A stretch of 46,887 bases of DNA from a virus, in IMG/VR virus record IMGVR_UViG_3300003691_000013, positions 1 to 46,887 of that record; one strand, 5' to 3'. The position numbers and the translations under genes are program-made. Shown in pieces: positions 7,085-39,558 of this stretch; position 1 is the stretch's first letter, and every line of letters starts with the position of its first letter. Under the pieces are notes generated by a model. That model saw only the letters and a program-made list of their open reading frames with translations, did no database searches and was not told the origin of the DNA.

Positions 7085-7380
7085 TGATAAAAAATATAAT
7101 CATAGGCATACTAACATTGAGTATGTTCTATTTGGGATATCAAATATCCGCAGCAAATGTAAAAGTCCGTAATCTTAAGTTATTATTAACTGATTACGAA
7201 GAATTAGTAGATGATTGGGCTGATACAGCTGAAGAAGTTAAAGACCTCGCTACTGAATTAACTATTAAATTAGCTAACTGTAAAGGTTACCCAATTGATA
7301 GTTTAGGGAGCACTGTTCAAAGCTATTTGAAGAGACAAAAAGATGTTGTTTCCAAGGTTTATAAACCACCGGGAGACTAA
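7084..7380 (+). CDS. Membrane-anchored helical protein (98 aa)
   Basis: I place the start at the ATG at 7084 (MIKNIIIGILTLSMFYLGYQ) because it overlaps the previous stop; a longer frame from 7039 would run inside the previous gene. An N-terminal membrane segment (residues 3-18) is followed by a long charged helix and the end YKPPGD. The topology recalls an inner-membrane spanin, but there is no partner gene or lipobox nearby, so that is only a possibility. Confidence 0.7.
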   Translation: MIKNIIIGILTLSMFYLGYQISAANVKVRNLKLLLTDYEELVDDWADTAEEVKDLATELTIKLANCKGYPIDSLGSTVQSYLKRQKDVVSKVYKPPGD

Positions 7381-7995: not shown

Positions 7996-8585
7996 GAATA
8001 TTAAGTAAGTATAAAGATTACTACGATTATTTCCAAGGTATCTTTGGGATGGATAAGACCAAAGTATATGATAGACGTAAAATGGTCAAACAAAAAGACT
8101 ATGTCAATTGTGTATTTGAAAACGATGTTGAGACTATTAGAATAGCTGTATGTAATAGGTTATATACAATATACTATTATAAAGGTAAAAGATATCATAC
8201 TCCAGATGAGTTAAGAGAACTAGGCAAGCTAAGATATAGTAAGTTTAGTTATAGTAGATATCATTATTGGAGAGAAGAAGAAGATTACAATAAAACGTAT
8301 GCTATGGAGAATGGTATCAGTACTGATGTTAATATTAGGGAACGACAGCCTGTATTAATAACTAAAAATCATTATTTTTCAAGAAATAGCAACTGGGAAG
8401 TACCCTTATTAAGTACATTTCAATTTCATAAGGTTATACCTGCTAAAGATATATACATTATGATTGAAACATTCTTAGGGTATTTAATAGATAATCCACC
8501 ACTACCTGACAACCAGACTAATATTGGTAAGGTAGAAGCACATGGATTTGATAAGAAACGGTCATTCAGACCTAAAATGAAATAA
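7992..8585 (+). CDS. Conserved phage-type hypothetical protein (197 aa)
   Basis: Starts MRILSKYKDYYDYFQGIFGM and continues with DKTKVYDRR, a beginning (KYKDYYDYxxGIxGxDxxxxYxR) recurrent in phages of many hosts. Very rich in Tyr, Arg and Lys. The role of this family is unknown to me. It ends the long coupled block; 20 bp further the tRNA region begins. Confidence 0.8.
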   Translation: MRILSKYKDYYDYFQGIFGMDKTKVYDRRKMVKQKDYVNCVFENDVETIRIAVCNRLYTIYYYKGKRYHTPDELRELGKLRYSKFSYSRYHYWREEEDYNKTYAMENGISTDVNIRERQPVLITKNHYFSRNSNWEVPLLSTFQFHKVIPAKDIYIMIETFLGYLIDNPPLPDNQTNIGKVEAHGFDKKRSFRPKMK

Positions 8586-8605
8586 CAATAACAAGGACAA
8601 AATTT

Positions 8606-8701
8606 CTTGCGGTAGCTCAGACTGGCCAGAGCAACTGTACAAGGTCATTACTTCACGGTAATGATCGTATGGTGCGCGTGGGTTCAACTCCCATCCCAAG
8701 A
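8606..8701 (+). tRNA. tRNA-like gene with an overlong anticodon arm; anticodon unclear
   Basis: Acceptor strands 8606-8612 (CTTGCGG) and about 8694-8700 (TCCCAAG), canonical TA (8-9), D-arm GCTC/GAGC (8615-8632) with a normal loop, and T-arm GTGGG-TTCAACT-CCCAT (8678-8694) are clear; one C/C mismatch weakens the acceptor. In place of the 17-nt anticodon arm there is a 40-nt hairpin: ACTGTAC (8634-8640) pairs with GTATGGT (8667-8673), then GGTCATTAC with GTAATGATC around a TTCACG loop, leaving an AA bulge. No seven-base anticodon loop with U33 can be formed without removing bases. It may be an interrupted tRNA, a degenerate one, or a tRNA mimic. Confidence 0.6.
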
Positions 8702-8711
8702 AATTTTCCAT

Positions 8712-8782
8712 TGACACATAGTGTAACGGAAGCACGACAGCTTCAAAAGCTGGCAGTTGAGGTTCGAATCCTTGCGTGTCAA
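8712..8782 (+). tRNA. tRNA with CAA anticodon, short variable arm
   Basis: 71-nt cloverleaf: acceptor TGACACA/CGTGTCA (one mismatch at 7:66), D-arm GTGT/GCAC, anticodon arm ACAGC-TTCAAAA-GCTGG with anticodon CAA at 8744-8746, T-arm with loop TTCGAAT, discriminator A; CCA is not encoded. CAA reads the leucine codon UUG, but leucine tRNAs normally have a long variable arm and this one has only four bases. The body looks more like a glutamine-type tRNA. Amino-acid identity is therefore uncertain. Confidence 0.8.
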
Positions 8783-8793
8783 CAAATAAAAAA

Positions 8794-8899
8794 GCGAGGG
8801 GGTTTCAAGCCAAGAGTCATAAGCACTGGGGTGGACTAGTGAAAGCGCGTACAAAAGCAGCTCCGGAGTCGTTGGGGTAATGTCCAACTACGCCCCCGC
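8794..8899 (+). ncRNA. Structured 106-nt element with T-arm-like hairpin
   Basis: GCG plus GGGG (8794-8801, one bulged A) pairs with CCCC plus CGC (8893-8899). Inside lie a hairpin CACTGG/CTAGTG (8824-8841), the palindrome CTCCGGAG (8861-8868), and GTTGG (8871-8875) pairing with CCAAC (8884-8888) around an 8-nt loop. The arrangement ends with a hairpin next to the closing stem as in tRNAs, but the T-loop sequence is not canonical. Much richer in G+C than its surroundings, as expected for a functional RNA. Identity unknown. Confidence 0.45.
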
Positions 8900-8954
8900 A
8901 CACAACAAGGCCCAGATGTGCCCAATTTAACGAACATCTATCATCATATTATAT

Positions 8955-9020
8955 AAACTAGTGCTTAAAGCTGTACAATTGGATAAAGGGATAATAGCCT
9001 AGTCGCCCTCCAGCTAGTTT
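8955..9020 (+). ncRNA. 66-nt stem-closed element upstream of gene 9059
   Basis: AAACTAG (8955-8961) pairs perfectly with CTAGTTT (9014-9020). An inner hairpin uses TTGG (8979-8982)/CCAG (9010-9013) and AGGG (8987-8990)/CCCT (9006-9009) with a four-base bulge. It is 38 nt from the next start codon, so it may be a leader element or a tRNA-sized small RNA. No T-loop is seen. Confidence 0.4.
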
Positions 9021-9058
9021 ATTTAAATTTAAAATTTTAAACACTAAATATAAATTAA

Positions 9059-9343
9059 ATGAAGAACAAAACTTATTATTACCATTCACCTCGCATTGAA
9101 GGGGAGAAGAGACATACTATTGCAGGAGTCTTAAACAAAGGAGAAATGAGCATCGGAATTGCATCTTGTTCAAAAGCAGATGTATTTATTAAAAGTAAAG
9201 GACGTGAATTAGCTGAAGAAAGAGCTACAAAAGCAATGTCCGGAAAAATATGCGTTGGAAAAAATGCACATATGGGAATAGCATTTAGAGCTATTGCTGT
9301 AGGTATTGTGGCATCAATGATGTCCAATAAATATAAATTCTAG
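9059..9343 (+). CDS. Hypothetical protein (94 aa)
   Basis: Starts MKNKTYYYHSPRIEGEKRHT and contains ADVFIKSKGRELAEERA. The fragment FxKxKGRxIAxxRA is common in short phage proteins of unknown function that process or bind nucleic acids only by guess. It is embedded in the RNA-gene region and followed directly by a terminator-like hairpin, so it is probably transcribed together with the upstream RNAs. Confidence 0.8.
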   Translation: MKNKTYYYHSPRIEGEKRHTIAGVLNKGEMSIGIASCSKADVFIKSKGRELAEERATKAMSGKICVGKNAHMGIAFRAIAVGIVASMMSNKYKF

Positions 9344-9371
9344 AAAGGGGTTAACCACAGCCCTTTCATTT
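9343..9371 (+). terminator. Terminator-like hairpin after gene 9059
   Basis: GAAAGGG (9343-9349) pairs with CCCTTTC (9361-9367), followed by ATTTATT. The stem overlaps the last base of the stop codon. The T-tract is interrupted, so efficiency is uncertain. Confidence 0.6.
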
Positions 9372-9379
9372 ATTAATAT

Positions 9380-9704
9380 AGAATATTAAGCTTATTTAAT
9401 CACTAAGAAAGATACATTAGGCTAATGTATTATCTCTAAAAAGAGCTAAGCTCTTAACGAGGGTGTCATTAGGGATGGTAACTACGATATGTATAAACAA
9501 TAAGAGATATCTTATACTCTGCCATATATTAATAAATAATCACCTAGTGACACAGGAAAAAGGGTTAATAGTACTAACACATAAACCAGTAACCCTGCGG
9601 TTAATGAGATCACCCAAGACACAGACGTATAAATCTCATAATTGAAGATCAAGATCAATACGTGCTTGCTGTTAGATGTGTTAAAGTCACTTTAAAATAA
9701 TACA
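9380..9704 (+). other. Hairpin-rich gene-free stretch, candidate small RNAs
   Basis: No supportable gene. Perfect hairpins follow one another: ATACATTA/TAATGTAT (9412-9430), AAGAGC/GCTCTT (9440-9454), a long one closed by GTGTCA (9464-9469) and TGACAC (9547-9552) with AGG/CCT and inner ATATG/CATAT and GTATAA/TTATAC, AGGGTTA/TAACCCT (9561-9596), ATGAGAT/ATCTCAT (9604-9638) and TTAAAGT/ACTTTAA (9681-9695). The loop of the ATGAGAT hairpin contains AGACGTATAAA, loosely like the conserved part of the tRNA inserts described below. The stretch is probably transcribed as structured RNA between tRNA genes. Confidence 0.45.
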
Positions 9705-9820
9705 GTTCACAATAACAAAAGCTATTAAAAGTATGTACATACTTTAAGTAGATAGGGTTAACTACATATGCCAGATGATATCTTAAGCCATATGTACGAA
9801 GGTTCGATCCCTTTGTGAAC
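9705..9820 (+). tRNA. Interrupted tRNA-like gene, two insertions, anticodon possibly TAA
   Basis: Acceptor strands GTTCACA (9705-9711) and TGTGAAC (9814-9820) pair perfectly; D-arm GTAG/CTAC (9748-9765) has a GGG-containing loop; T-arm GAAGG-TTCGATC-CCTTT is canonical. Between acceptor and D-arm there are 34 extra nt (9712-9745) ending in the perfect palindrome AAAGTATG-TA-CATACTTT (9728-9745). The anticodon stem ATATG/CATAT (9766-9770, 9789-9793) encloses 18 nt instead of 7; removal of 11 nt would leave loop CTTAAGC with anticodon TAA. Either the gene needs removal of inserts to work or it is decayed. The variable arm is short, unlike a normal leucine tRNA. Confidence 0.6.
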
Positions 9821-9842
9821 ATCTAATCTAAACAATAAAACT

Positions 9843-10067
9843 ATGTTAAAAATCATATTAAATACAATTAGACTATTTATAGCTATGATCCTCACCATAT
9901 TTGTAATGTGTTTAGTTATTACAGCAGTATTTTCACTCATATTCTGGGAAACCAGACTATTTGTGAATCTATGGGAGTCTATTAAAACACCTGAAATGTA
10001 TAATATACGTTTCCTTGGGGTATTCTTAGTAGCTTCTCTAATAATCAGTATTATCCGTAATAGATAA
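9843..10067 (+). CDS. Small membrane protein (74 aa)
   Basis: MLKIILNTIRLFIAMILTIF begins a long hydrophobic segment (residues 3-33), a short amphipathic region around ETRLFVNLWESIK follows, and a second segment (FLGVFLVASLIISII, 56-70) ends in RNR. Likely two transmembrane helices. It sits between two interrupted tRNA genes, with 6 bp to the tRNA-Met. No lysis family recognised. Confidence 0.7.
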   Translation: MLKIILNTIRLFIAMILTIFVMCLVITAVFSLIFWETRLFVNLWESIKTPEMYNIRFLGVFLVASLIISIIRNR

Positions 10068-10073
10068 TGCTTG

Positions 10074-10202
10074 GGGAAGGTAGCTCAGTCCGGTTAGAGC
10101 CCCTGTCTCAGATAGACCTAGTTTAGTAGATTAATATGTAAATAGACATTATTAAACTTACTTATAAACAGGTTGTCCCAGGTTCGAATCCTGGTCTTCC
10201 CC
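10074..10202 (+). tRNA. tRNA-Met(CAT) interrupted by a 54-nt insert
   Basis: Acceptor GGGAAGG (10074-10080) pairs with TCTTCCC (10195-10201); TA at 8-9; D-arm GCTC/GAGC with loop AGTCCGGTTA; anticodon stem CCTGT (10102-10106)/ACAGG (10168-10172); T-arm CCAGG-TTCGAAT-CCTGG. The anticodon loop is broken after CTCA (10107-10110) and resumes with TAA (10165-10167). Removing 10111-10164 gives CTCATAA, exactly the loop of elongator methionine tRNA, so this is a methionine (or, after modification, isoleucine) tRNA. A G at 10073 faces C73, an unusual end. CCA is not encoded. Confidence 0.88.
10111..10164 (+). other. 54-nt intron-like insert in tRNA-Met
   Basis: Inserted between anticodon bases 35 and 36 (one-base shift is equally possible: 10110-10163). 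Insert positions 10-15 (AGTTTA) can pair with positions 43-48 (TAAACT). Its last 22 nt, starting TAGACATTAT, align without gaps to those of the insert in the neighbouring tRNA-Gly. It is far too short for a group I or II intron and the exon junctions do not form an obvious archaeal bulge-helix-bulge. Removal mechanism unknown. Confidence 0.75.
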
Positions 10203-10221
10203 CAAAATAATTATACCACAT

Positions 10222-10346
10222 AGTGCGTTCGTCTAGTGGTAGGACGCCGTAATATTTACTTACATTGATTACACATCACTGTAGACATAATTTAAGTTAC
10301 TAAGCATTCCAAGCCGGTAACAGAGGTTCGATTCCTCTACGCACTG
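10222..10346 (+). tRNA. tRNA-Gly(TCC) interrupted by a 54-nt insert
   Basis: Acceptor AGTGCGT (10222-10228) and ACGCACT (10339-10345) pair perfectly, discriminator G10346. D-arm GTCT/GGAC, T-arm AGAGG-TTCGATT-CCTCT. The 5' anticodon strand stops after CCG (10247-10249, positions 27-29) and resumes with GC (10304-10305, positions 30-31). Joined, CCGGC pairs perfectly with GCCGG (10313-10317) around the loop ATTCCAA with anticodon TCC. The insert therefore lies inside the anticodon stem, a place where neither bacterial group I introns nor most archaeal introns are found. CCA is not encoded. Confidence 0.85.
10250..10303 (+). other. 54-nt intron-like insert in tRNA-Gly
   Basis: Boundaries are fixed by the restored stem pairing: no one-base shift works. 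The length equals that of the tRNA-Met insert. Insert positions 9-13 (ACTTA) pair with 44-48 (TAAGT). Compared with the other insert, the bases at insert positions 44 and 47 differ (A to T, C to G) and the opposite strand differs correspondingly, so pairing is kept. Shared motifs: GATTA in the middle, TAGACATWAT, and TTACTWA at the 3' end. Confidence 0.75.
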
Positions 10347-10354
10347 CAAAATCT

Positions 10355-10436
10355 AAAGAGTATAGGCCATTATAAAGGTTACTAAATTTTTCTATACATA
10401 AATAATGCTACCTTTGTAGATTATCTTATACTCTTT
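10355..10436 (+). promoter_or_regulatory. Bacteroidota-type promoter inside a nested inverted repeat
   Basis: TACCTTTG (10409-10416) matches the -7 core TAnnTTTG; a T-rich stretch at 10387-10391 lies at the distance of the -33 box. The promoter is enclosed by the 10-bp perfect arms AAAGAGTATA (10355-10364) and TATACTCTTT (10427-10436), with AAAGGT (10374-10379)/ACCTTT (10410-10415) nested inside. It follows the tRNA-Gly by 9 nt and precedes the small ORF at 10466. The arms could end tRNA transcription or bind a regulator. Confidence 0.6.
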
Positions 10437-10465
10437 TATATTAATTAATATATAAACTTATACAA

Positions 10466-10543
10466 ATGAGACAAATATACGTTTACATAATCGTAGTAGT
10501 ATTCCTACTAATTATAGCAGCAATTTCAACTAATCCAAATTAA
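10466..10543 (+). CDS. Tiny membrane peptide (25 aa)
   Basis: Reads MRQIYVYIIVVVFLLIIAAI then STNPN. One clear membrane segment. It is the first ORF after the promoter at 10409 and is 10 bp upstream of the next gene, which supports expression; the role is unknown. Confidence 0.5.
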   Translation: MRQIYVYIIVVVFLLIIAAISTNPN

Positions 10544-10553
10544 ATATATATAT

Positions 10554-10700
10554 ATGGCAACGAGAGGAGCAAATAAAGCCAAATGCCAAGGCTATAAAAT
10601 GGCAGGCACACGTATGAAGAATAGACTACGTAAATTAAACAAACACTTGAAAATACATCCAAATGATGCGCCTGCAAAAGCAGCGTTGAAATTGAGATAA
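10554..10700 (+). CDS. Small very basic protein (48 aa)
   Basis: Starts MATRGANKAKCQGYKMAGTR and ends APAKAALKLR; about a third Lys/Arg with few acidic residues. The shape (RLRKLNKHLKIHPND) suggests binding of nucleic acid, which would fit its place among RNA genes, but this is inference from charge only. Confidence 0.6.
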   Translation: MATRGANKAKCQGYKMAGTRMKNRLRKLNKHLKIHPNDAPAKAALKLR

Positions 10701-10707
10701 TAAATCA

Positions 10708-10770
10708 GGGGGCCATTAATTGAGTTACTCAGAGTTTGTAAATCTAATACGCACTCAATCAGATTTCCCC
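10708..10770 (+). ncRNA. Candidate H-type pseudoknot upstream of ORF 10788
   Basis: Stem 1: ATTGAGT (10719-10725) with ACTCAAT (10753-10759). Stem 2: AAATCT (10740-10745) with AGATTT (10761-10766). The stems interlock, giving a pseudoknot, and GGGG (10708-10711) can close onto CCCC (10767-10770). It ends 17 nt before the start of the next ORF, so a role in controlling its translation is conceivable. Confidence 0.4.
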
Positions 10771-10787
10771 GGAGCAATAAATCAGAC

Positions 10788-10895
10788 ATGATCAAAGTTA
10801 CTAAAACAGATAATCACAATCCCGGCTTACCTTCCTTTTCAGAAAAGCGAAGGATAAGTGAAAGGGATTACCAATCTACTTTGAACGACTACTGA
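10788..10895 (+). CDS. Small hypothetical protein (35 aa)
   Basis: Reads MIKVTKTDNHNPGLPSFSEK then RRISERDYQSTLNDY. The composition looks protein-like (NPGLPSF, RRISERDYQ). Between a pseudoknot and the tRNA-like module. Function unknown. Confidence 0.45.
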   Translation: MIKVTKTDNHNPGLPSFSEKRRISERDYQSTLNDY

Positions 10896-10918
10896 TTTTT
10901 ATAACTTAAGTTAACCAT

Positions 10919-10990
10919 ATTACAGGTTACTATTGGTTATTCTAGGTTCAAGTCCTAGTTTTGCCTTCGGGCAAAAATTATACCTGTAAT
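10919..10990 (+). ncRNA. Permuted tRNA / Y-RNA-like module
   Basis: ATTACAGGT (10919-10927) pairs perfectly with ACCTGTAAT (10982-10990). Enclosed are a perfect T-arm CTAGG-TTCAAGT-CCTAG (10942-10958) and, directly adjacent, a 7-bp helix TTTTGCC/GGCAAAA (10959-10976) capped by TTCG, placed like an acceptor stem whose ends are joined. The single-stranded part ACTATTGGTTA resembles a D-loop with GG. This is the layout of a circularly permuted tRNA whose anticodon-stem position is an end-to-end helix, as described for bacterial Y RNAs. There is no D-stem, and T-tract is absent, so it is not a terminator. It ends 26 nt before the gene at 11017. Confidence 0.5.
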
Positions 10991-11016
10991 GATTATTAAT
11001 TTTTAAAACATACTAA

Positions 11017-38391: not shown

Positions 38392-39558
38392 ATGAGTACA
38401 AACAAAACAAAAGTGAGCCTGTCAAACGACGGGCTTGCCTCGTTTTTTACTAAGAGAGAGGTAATGAACGCCGTTCCAGAATGGGACGCTAAAGAAGGAA
38501 AAGTAATATTTAATTTAAAAGGAACAGGAACATTTGAAAACTTTCATAGTGGTAAGACATTAGATGAATTCAACTCGTATAGGGAAAGACTATTTGAAGT
38601 GATAAGCAGAAATAGTATTAATGACAAGGATAAGGTATTTTTTACCAAGAATTCTATATTCCCAAGGACAACTTTTAATAGATATTCTAAGAAAGCAAAA
38701 AGAGTGGAGCTAACTAAGACAGCTACTAAACAGGTTATTAACACTAACTTACATGCATATAGTAATAATAGTGGTTATATAGAAACGGCTAATCATGCAA
38801 TTGCTTTAAAAGTACATGAGAAGTGGTTTAGGGATTTCTTCCAAAATTTGACTAATAACCAAACAAAACAAGGACAACCAGAACTTAAGTATATAGCCAA
38901 GTTATTTAATTCATACTATTATGATAGAGATAAATTAGAAGAGCATTGTGTTAAAATGCTTGGAGCACAGTTAGGGGAGTCTTTATCAAGGACGGCTACT
39001 TACAGAAAACTACAGTTTAATTCGGAGCCAGATAGAGAGTCTTTCAATGCTTTACTAGAAGGACATGCTATATCTTTGTTTACTAACGATGCCCAGGCAA
39101 ATGCGTATATAGATGCGCTTAAACCTAAATTAGATGTAGAAAGTTATAATTTGTTACTAGGGTCTATGTCTAGTGGTGGAACAAATATAACTATGGGATT
39201 GAAATTATTAGAAAATATGAATGTTAAGGAGGGTTTACCATACTTATACTCATTATTTCTAGTATCATTCGCTAAGAATGGCCAAAATATCAGAAATAAT
39301 AATACTTTTAATTCAGTAGGGATTAAGAATATTAGAAATATATATAATTTAAATATGATTACTATAGGGGATTATAGTAACAGAGATAAAATAGCATTGA
39401 TGGAGAAGGTGTACAAGAATAACTTGAGGACACCACAAGAAAAGCAATTGTTTCGAGATATAATCAACAATTCTTTACATGAGCAACTGGAATTACTATT
39501 AGGCGCAGGTCCATATAGTTTCCTATATTTAAAGAAGAAGGAAGATGAAAATAATTGA
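38392..39558 (+). CDS. Large hypothetical protein (388 aa)
   Basis: MSTNKTKVSLSNDGLASFFT; Asn/Lys/Leu-rich, mostly helical. It contains no motif I recognise. It directly follows the MoxR ATPase (6 bp) and overlaps the next gene by 14 bp, so it may belong to the same complex. Confidence 0.75.
   Translation: MSTNKTKVSLSNDGLASFFTKREVMNAVPEWDAKEGKVIFNLKGTGTFENFHSGKTLDEFNSYRERLFEVISRNSINDKDKVFFTKNSIFPRTTFNRYSKKAKRVELTKTATKQVINTNLHAYSNNSGYIETANHAIALKVHEKWFRDFFQNLTNNQTKQGQPELKYIAKLFNSYYYDRDKLEEHCVKMLGAQLGESLSRTATYRKLQFNSEPDRESFNALLEGHAISLFTNDAQANAYIDALKPKLDVESYNLLLGSMSSGGTNITMGLKLLENMNVKEGLPYLYSLFLVSFAKNGQNIRNNNTFNSVGIKNIRNIYNLNMITIGDYSNRDKIALMEKVYKNNLRTPQEKQLFRDIINNSLHEQLELLLGAGPYSFLYLKKKEDENN

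Follow-up and report, generated by a model that had tools for sequence, protein, structure and literature searches.

The window analysed here, a linear viral sequence 46,887 bases long, carries a cluster of ordinary and odd tRNA genes in which six matches to the T-arm pattern occur on the plus strand (at 8678, 8758, 9798, 10178, 10322 and 10942, all within 8678-10942) and none on the minus strand, set against a mean of 0.06 over both strands in 300 dinucleotide shuffles of the window. ARAGORN calls a single uninterrupted tRNA, an ordinary tRNA-Leu(caa) at 8712-8783 (plus strand, as are all genes and arms placed in the window below), and, with introns allowed, additionally 8604-8703, 10074-10203 and 10222-10347; Rfam accepts the tRNAs at 8712 and 10074. 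Neither program reports a tRNA at 9705-9820, ARAGORN even with introns allowed and Rfam up to E 10, and the stretch 9704-9821 does not reach the RF00005 gathering score. Comparison of the DNA of 8400-11100 with named phages returned no match.

The element at 9704-9821, which lies between same-strand genes, is nonetheless genuine in sequence and fold, and appears to be a tRNA-like gene with a remodelled lower half. Its T-arm (GAAGG-TTCGATC-CCTTT, 9798-9814) is canonical, with five pairs and a TTCRANY loop, and is followed by the acceptor 3' strand GTGAAC (9815-9820), which pairs with the 5' strand GTTCAC (9705-9710); a T-arm joined to a 6/6 acceptor match of this kind arose in 0 of 300 shuffled windows. 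The strands are thus complementary, as the sequence-only reading had proposed, but its perfect 7-bp acceptor is not compatible with a standard 5-bp T stem, beside which there are six pairs and an A-A opposition at 1-72 (A9704, A9821); seven pairs form only if the T stem is shortened to 4 bp. Of the proper D-arm and T-arm likewise proposed, the T-arm stands, while the D-arm-like hairpin (GTAG-ATAGGGTTAA-CTAC, 9748-9765) is present in the sequence and absent from the best fold, which has a competing long hairpin in its place. With a 4-bp D stem, base 26 is missing. Compared with a canonical tRNA, the element has an additional stretch of approximately 34 nt ahead of the D-arm, and its anticodon loop measures 18 nt. 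This loop (9771-9788, closed in the cloverleaf by the 5-bp stem ATATG/CATAT within 9763-9796) and the 18-nt perfect palindrome between acceptor and D-arm (AAAGTATGTACATACTTT, 9728-9745) are both as first described.

The cloverleaf with its palindrome hairpin (-15.8 kcal/mol) is surpassed by a best fold of -28.2 kcal/mol for 9704-9821, in which TAAC (9713-9716) pairs with GTTA (9757-9760), around CTATT/AGTAG and the palindrome hairpin, to make one long arm of the D region (9713-9760), and in which the anticodon region forms a second arm of 8 bp (TACATATG/CATATGTA, 9763-9796). The fold has a z-score of -3.22 and was equalled in 1 of 200 shuffles; the reverse strand gives -2.60 and a nearby coding stretch -1.34. 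It had been proposed that another fold scoring far better would tell against a tRNA, and to that extent the proposal is weakened, as the cloverleaf is not the minimum-energy structure; the acceptor and T-arm, however, are retained in that structure. Since the best fold keeps this top half and lengthens the other arms, what sets the element apart may be enlarged arms and not two interruptions. An interrupted tRNA is one reading of it, and the lower-energy fold is that of a tRNA-like RNA with enlarged arms. What the shuffles and folds show is an acceptor/T-arm half that is tRNA-like beyond chance, together with extra complementary stretches in the lower half. No homologue was found that could provide covariation for either fold: when the element was joined without its first insert, the best of 102 ordinary tRNAs scored 46, with no clear homologue among them.

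The palindrome had also invited the idea that a palindromic mobile element has entered a tRNA gene here. An 18-nt perfect palindrome does lie within the extra stretch, but there is only one copy in the window, with up to three mismatches allowed, which argues against mobility; its 12-nt core occurs in 2 of 107 loci, both of which are stretches of the window itself, and in the best fold the palindrome belongs to the longer hairpin. We consider this origin very improbable.

Among the neighbours, a Met-type tRNA (10074-10203) and a Gly-like one (10222-10347) carry 54-nt inserts at 10111-10164 (limits within 1-2 nt) and 10250-10303, respectively; for the second gene ARAGORN gives Trp and a 56-nt intron, whereas our own score prefers UCC and 54 nt. 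The 3' ends of both inserts share TAGACATWATTWAASTTACTWA, and a third copy of this motif, with three mismatches, lies outside any recognised tRNA at 10783-10804; three matches were seen in 0 of 100 shuffles, the motif having been written from the first two copies. In an excision test (one stretch removed, the canonical anticodon arm scored by our own scheme against shuffles, p uncorrected), removal of 54 nt restores the anticodon arm in the Met-type (p = 0.0005) and Gly-like (p = 0.0015) genes, and these two look like true intron-bearing tRNAs. No bulge-helix-bulge was seen by hand at their junctions. A group I intron is not indicated, as Rfam finds no match for the catalytic core and the inserts span just 11-54 nt. 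In the 9704-9821 element, removal of 11 nt yields ATATG-CTTAAGC-CATAT, a 5-bp stem and 7-nt loop with U33 and the anticodon UAA (p = 0.003 with a D stem of 3 bp, assigned so that C9765 becomes base 26; p = 0.0058 with base 26 optional); with a 4-bp D stem the best score is 6.0. Over the 15 odd genes tried, p fell below 0.05 in seven and not in eight. The test is a weak one, in that of two uninterrupted controls one passed and the other, the His gene of relative L007, failed (p = 0.109).

Two further tRNA-like elements complete the cluster. That at 8604-8703 is distinguished by a bulge in the acceptor and by a hairpin inserted into the anticodon region, and its Rfam tRNA score (22.9 bits) is below the gathering threshold of 29. 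The other is marked by the T-arm at 10942-10958, its 5' part not being placed; a permuted reading of this T-arm was rejected, as no D-arm is seen downstream by eye and the search for permuted genes returns none. Additional non-coding intergenic stretches with long complementary segments lie at 8795-9025, 9360-9700, 10350-10445 and 10700-10830, none of which matches Rfam at gathering score.

Relatives of the window and the link to Lak megaphages

The window's PolA is 30-37% identical to those of named phages, crAss-like phages included, among the best 20 of 2643 matches, and no Lak record is found among those 20. Single-protein searches with PolA and a 669-aa ORF gave no close relatives, and the ORF at 38392-39558 has no match among named phages. 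By PolA alignment the window's relatives are L007 (61%), L088 (56%) and L087 (68%), the last with just 2.6 kb upstream and no tRNA. A helicase scan with the window and L007 returned the same contigs plus short pieces, and a last PolA scan added nothing new. Both L007 and L088 carry a set of ordinary tRNAs and also odd tRNA genes, the latter lying upstream of PolA as they do in the window. Just upstream of the permuted genes described below is a 260-aa gene (DUF7873), which led to two further contigs of identical arrangement, L096 and L097. In named phages this gene is found in 15 records, all of them Prevotella Lak megaphages (approximately 40% identity), such that DUF7873 of the window's relatives matches Lak alone among named phages. 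The window itself has no DUF7873 match, and a search of genome contigs with this gene found no relative and hence no host genome. On the strength of the DUF7873 link, the window is probably Lak-related.

In L007 (7896-8025), L088 (7670-7799) and L096 (3912-4054) there are Leu-like tRNA genes that carry an additional hairpin after the variable arm and ahead of the T-arm; their hairpin stems differ, and the loop by eye retains ATCCTAGA. The L096 gene has the anticodon loop TTTTAGA and anticodon UUA, and would read the UAA stop. UAA suppressor tRNAs of unknown use are described in PMC8346664 as present in all 51 Lak genomes. Two matches to the freshwater-1 RNA, at 3747-3807 in L088 (54 bits) and 8231-8289 in L007 (50 bits), fall below the gathering score of 72 and sit among the odd tRNA genes.

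Permuted and nested tRNA genes

L007 and L088 each carry, near 7229 and 7147 respectively, a tRNA gene whose 3' half precedes its 5' half, and its RNA is present in all six sequences read: L007 (7095-7452), L088 (6995-7370), L096 (3609-3912), L097 (9010-9300), Lak-A1 (L113, minus strand) and Lak-B1 (L114). In the two Lak phages it does not adjoin DUF7873; all 15 of the Lak records match the stretch from Lak-A1, and of these A1 and B1 were read. The RNA has a long, conserved and structured leader and a terminal hairpin. With the acceptor and T parts placed by script and the D and anticodon parts by hand, 119 of 120 pair cells are formed across the six sequences (acceptor, T and anticodon stems plus the first three D pairs), the sole exception being the first anticodon-stem pair of L097. 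By hand count from the pair list, 15 of the 20 pairs vary, each with change on both sides. The permuted search gave a single candidate per locus in the six loci and none in 600 shuffles. It found no candidate in the window, and the 9704-9821 element is itself in normal order. A wider search of other loci produced a candidate at the same place in L094 and L105, which was judged spurious. The anticodon positions vary, and the 5' half continues into a conserved AGCNTTAG-type stretch. We rejected this stretch as a short peptide tag, as by eye a stop codon stands just ahead of it in three of six sequences, and the RNA as a tmRNA, given a weak beta_tmRNA match (17.5 bits) and a G-U at acceptor pair 3 in 0 of 6. 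A DNA pattern made from the leader matched just its two source contigs. Among the titles and abstracts listed in searches of an open-access library, outside which most subscription papers lie, none describes a permuted tRNA gene from a phage, and the string 'permut' is absent from the main texts of the Lak papers PMC6784885 and PMC8346664. Together with the calls reported above, this gene shows that standard tRNA finders miss genes such as that at 9704-9821 and permuted tRNA genes.

In the stretches read of Lak-A1 (L111, MK250016.1 470000-519000, minus strand), three genes consist of a tRNA within a tRNA, with the inner tRNA-like element situated in the anticodon loop and approximately 28-31 nt ahead of it. 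With the exons delimited by eye on the basis of the anticodon stem, exon 2 in two of the three follows immediately on the discriminator base of the inner element, the third being ambiguous; such a position would be compatible with RNase Z creating the 3' splice site. The proposal that inserts enter tRNA genes at several positions is borne out in this phage group, where they are found in the anticodon loop or stem (the window's Met and Gly-like genes), in the variable region (relatives), as a tRNA inside a tRNA (Lak-A1), and as full permutation (relatives). Disrupted tRNA genes are thus a trait of the lineage, as inserts, nested tRNAs and a permuted gene occur in the relatives and in Lak megaphages.

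Enzymes that could process such transcripts were sought in seven records of the window's group and three Lak genomes. EndA was found in none of the ten (four archaeal controls matched), nor was RtcB; on this search of phage sequences, splicing by EndA was rejected. The RNA_ligase family is above cut-off in all three Lak genomes and in none of the seven group records, which may be fragments; the window has none of the three. Matches to this family at E up to 0.001 number six in Lak-A1, four in B1 and six in C1, and the best loci have open reading frames 282-296 aa in length. One of these proteins, used as query against PDB sequences, returned nothing, such that the name rests on the Pfam match. 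In the T4 Rnl1 family search no control matched, and it is hence uninformative.

Discussion

We favour, at a probability of about 0.4, the reading of the 9704-9821 element as a gene for a tRNA-like RNA with enlarged arms, set in a cluster of odd tRNA genes typical of Lak-related phages. RNase P, RNase Z and the CCA-adding enzyme recognise the top half of a tRNA. The transcript would retain a tRNA-like top half for such end-processing enzymes, while its D and anticodon regions would fold into long hairpins; its ends may be trimmed as in a tRNA, and it would not decode codons. The RNA may indicate where cleavage should occur between the flanking same-strand genes, or serve as a stable tRNA mimic. 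The joint T-arm and acceptor match, the deep minimum-energy fold with its low z-score and the same-strand flanking genes are in keeping with this, as are the eight of 15 odd genes from which one excision does not recover a canonical anticodon arm at p < 0.05 and the inconstant anticodon of the otherwise conserved permuted RNA. Less easily accommodated are the 11-nt removal that rebuilds an anticodon arm with U33, the two neighbours that resemble true intron-bearing tRNAs, the lack of a homologue, and a reverse strand that folds nearly as well.

The first two of these points lend some plausibility to a discontinuous pre-tRNA, from which two inserts, one of approximately 34 nt separating acceptor from D-arm and one of 11 nt within the anticodon loop, would be excised at the RNA level to leave a UAA tRNA, sealed by an Rnl-type RNA ligase after cleavage by a nuclease. 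We regard this as tentative and somewhat less probable than a tRNA-like RNA with enlarged arms. That one 11-nt excision suffices for the anticodon arm, as 54-nt excisions do in the Met and Gly-like genes, speaks for splicing, as do the tRNA introns published for Lak phages (PMC6784885), the position of exon 2 in two of the three nested genes of Lak-A1, and the ligase family of the Lak genomes. Against it, two different inserts are required, one at a site unseen in the other genes examined; EndA, RtcB and the RNA_ligase family have no match in the window and its close relatives, all of which may be fragments; and the product would be abnormal, with mismatched bases at 1-72, a missing base 26 where the D stem is given 4 bp, and a UAA anticodon coupled to a 4-nt variable region, which departs from the tRNA class rule. 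It is this abnormal spliced product, together with the strong fold of the unspliced RNA, that leads us to prefer enlarged arms. Alternatively, the element could be a decaying tRNA gene in which insertions have accumulated, as its want of a homologue, its irregular acceptor and base 26 and the silence of ARAGORN and Rfam might suggest. Yet the long stems are intact and the fold is stable (z = -3.22), and odd tRNA genes recur in the relatives, one kind covarying across six phages; we therefore hold decay to be unlikely. On a broader scale, Lak and Lak-related phages could possess a cut-and-seal tRNA system within bacteria, embracing many-position inserts, nested and permuted tRNAs, in which RNase P and RNase Z would define ends, phage RNA ligases rather than EndA or RtcB would join them, and the 9704-9821 element would be a two-insert member; we consider this scheme doubtful, if less so than decay.

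Archaea and some algae have fragmented and permuted tRNA genes, circularly permuted ones being found in archaea and in red or green algae. The gene of the relatives and Lak phages resembles the latter in placing the 3' half first, with four stems that covary among the phages, and departs from those genes in its long conserved leader, the lack of a constant anticodon and the failure to find EndA, whereas the 9704-9821 element is in normal order. Two-piece, that is permuted, tmRNA is also organised by acceptor-half order, and the phage RNA shares this order and the weak beta_tmRNA match, but unlike tmRNA it has a D stem and lacks a G-U at the third acceptor pair in all six sequences. Mitochondrial transcripts are punctuated by tRNAs and t-elements; the 9704-9821 element is similar in being tRNA-like and situated between same-strand genes, although its arms are enlarged, not only reduced. 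Closest to hand are the intron-bearing tRNA genes of Lak phages, which like those of the window combine a genome of the Bacteroidota-phage type with short inserts in tRNA genes (PMC6784885). The same paper terms these introns 'enigmatic' and describes one that may itself contain a tRNA. The 9704-9821 element differs from them in its insert between acceptor and D-arm, and in a best fold which is not an interrupted cloverleaf.

With a permuted tRNA gene whose stems covary among Lak phages and the window's relatives, and odd genes such as that at 9704-9821, two possibilities become testable: that bacterial viruses splice tRNAs through a route of their own, or that they use tRNA-shaped RNAs for something besides decoding.
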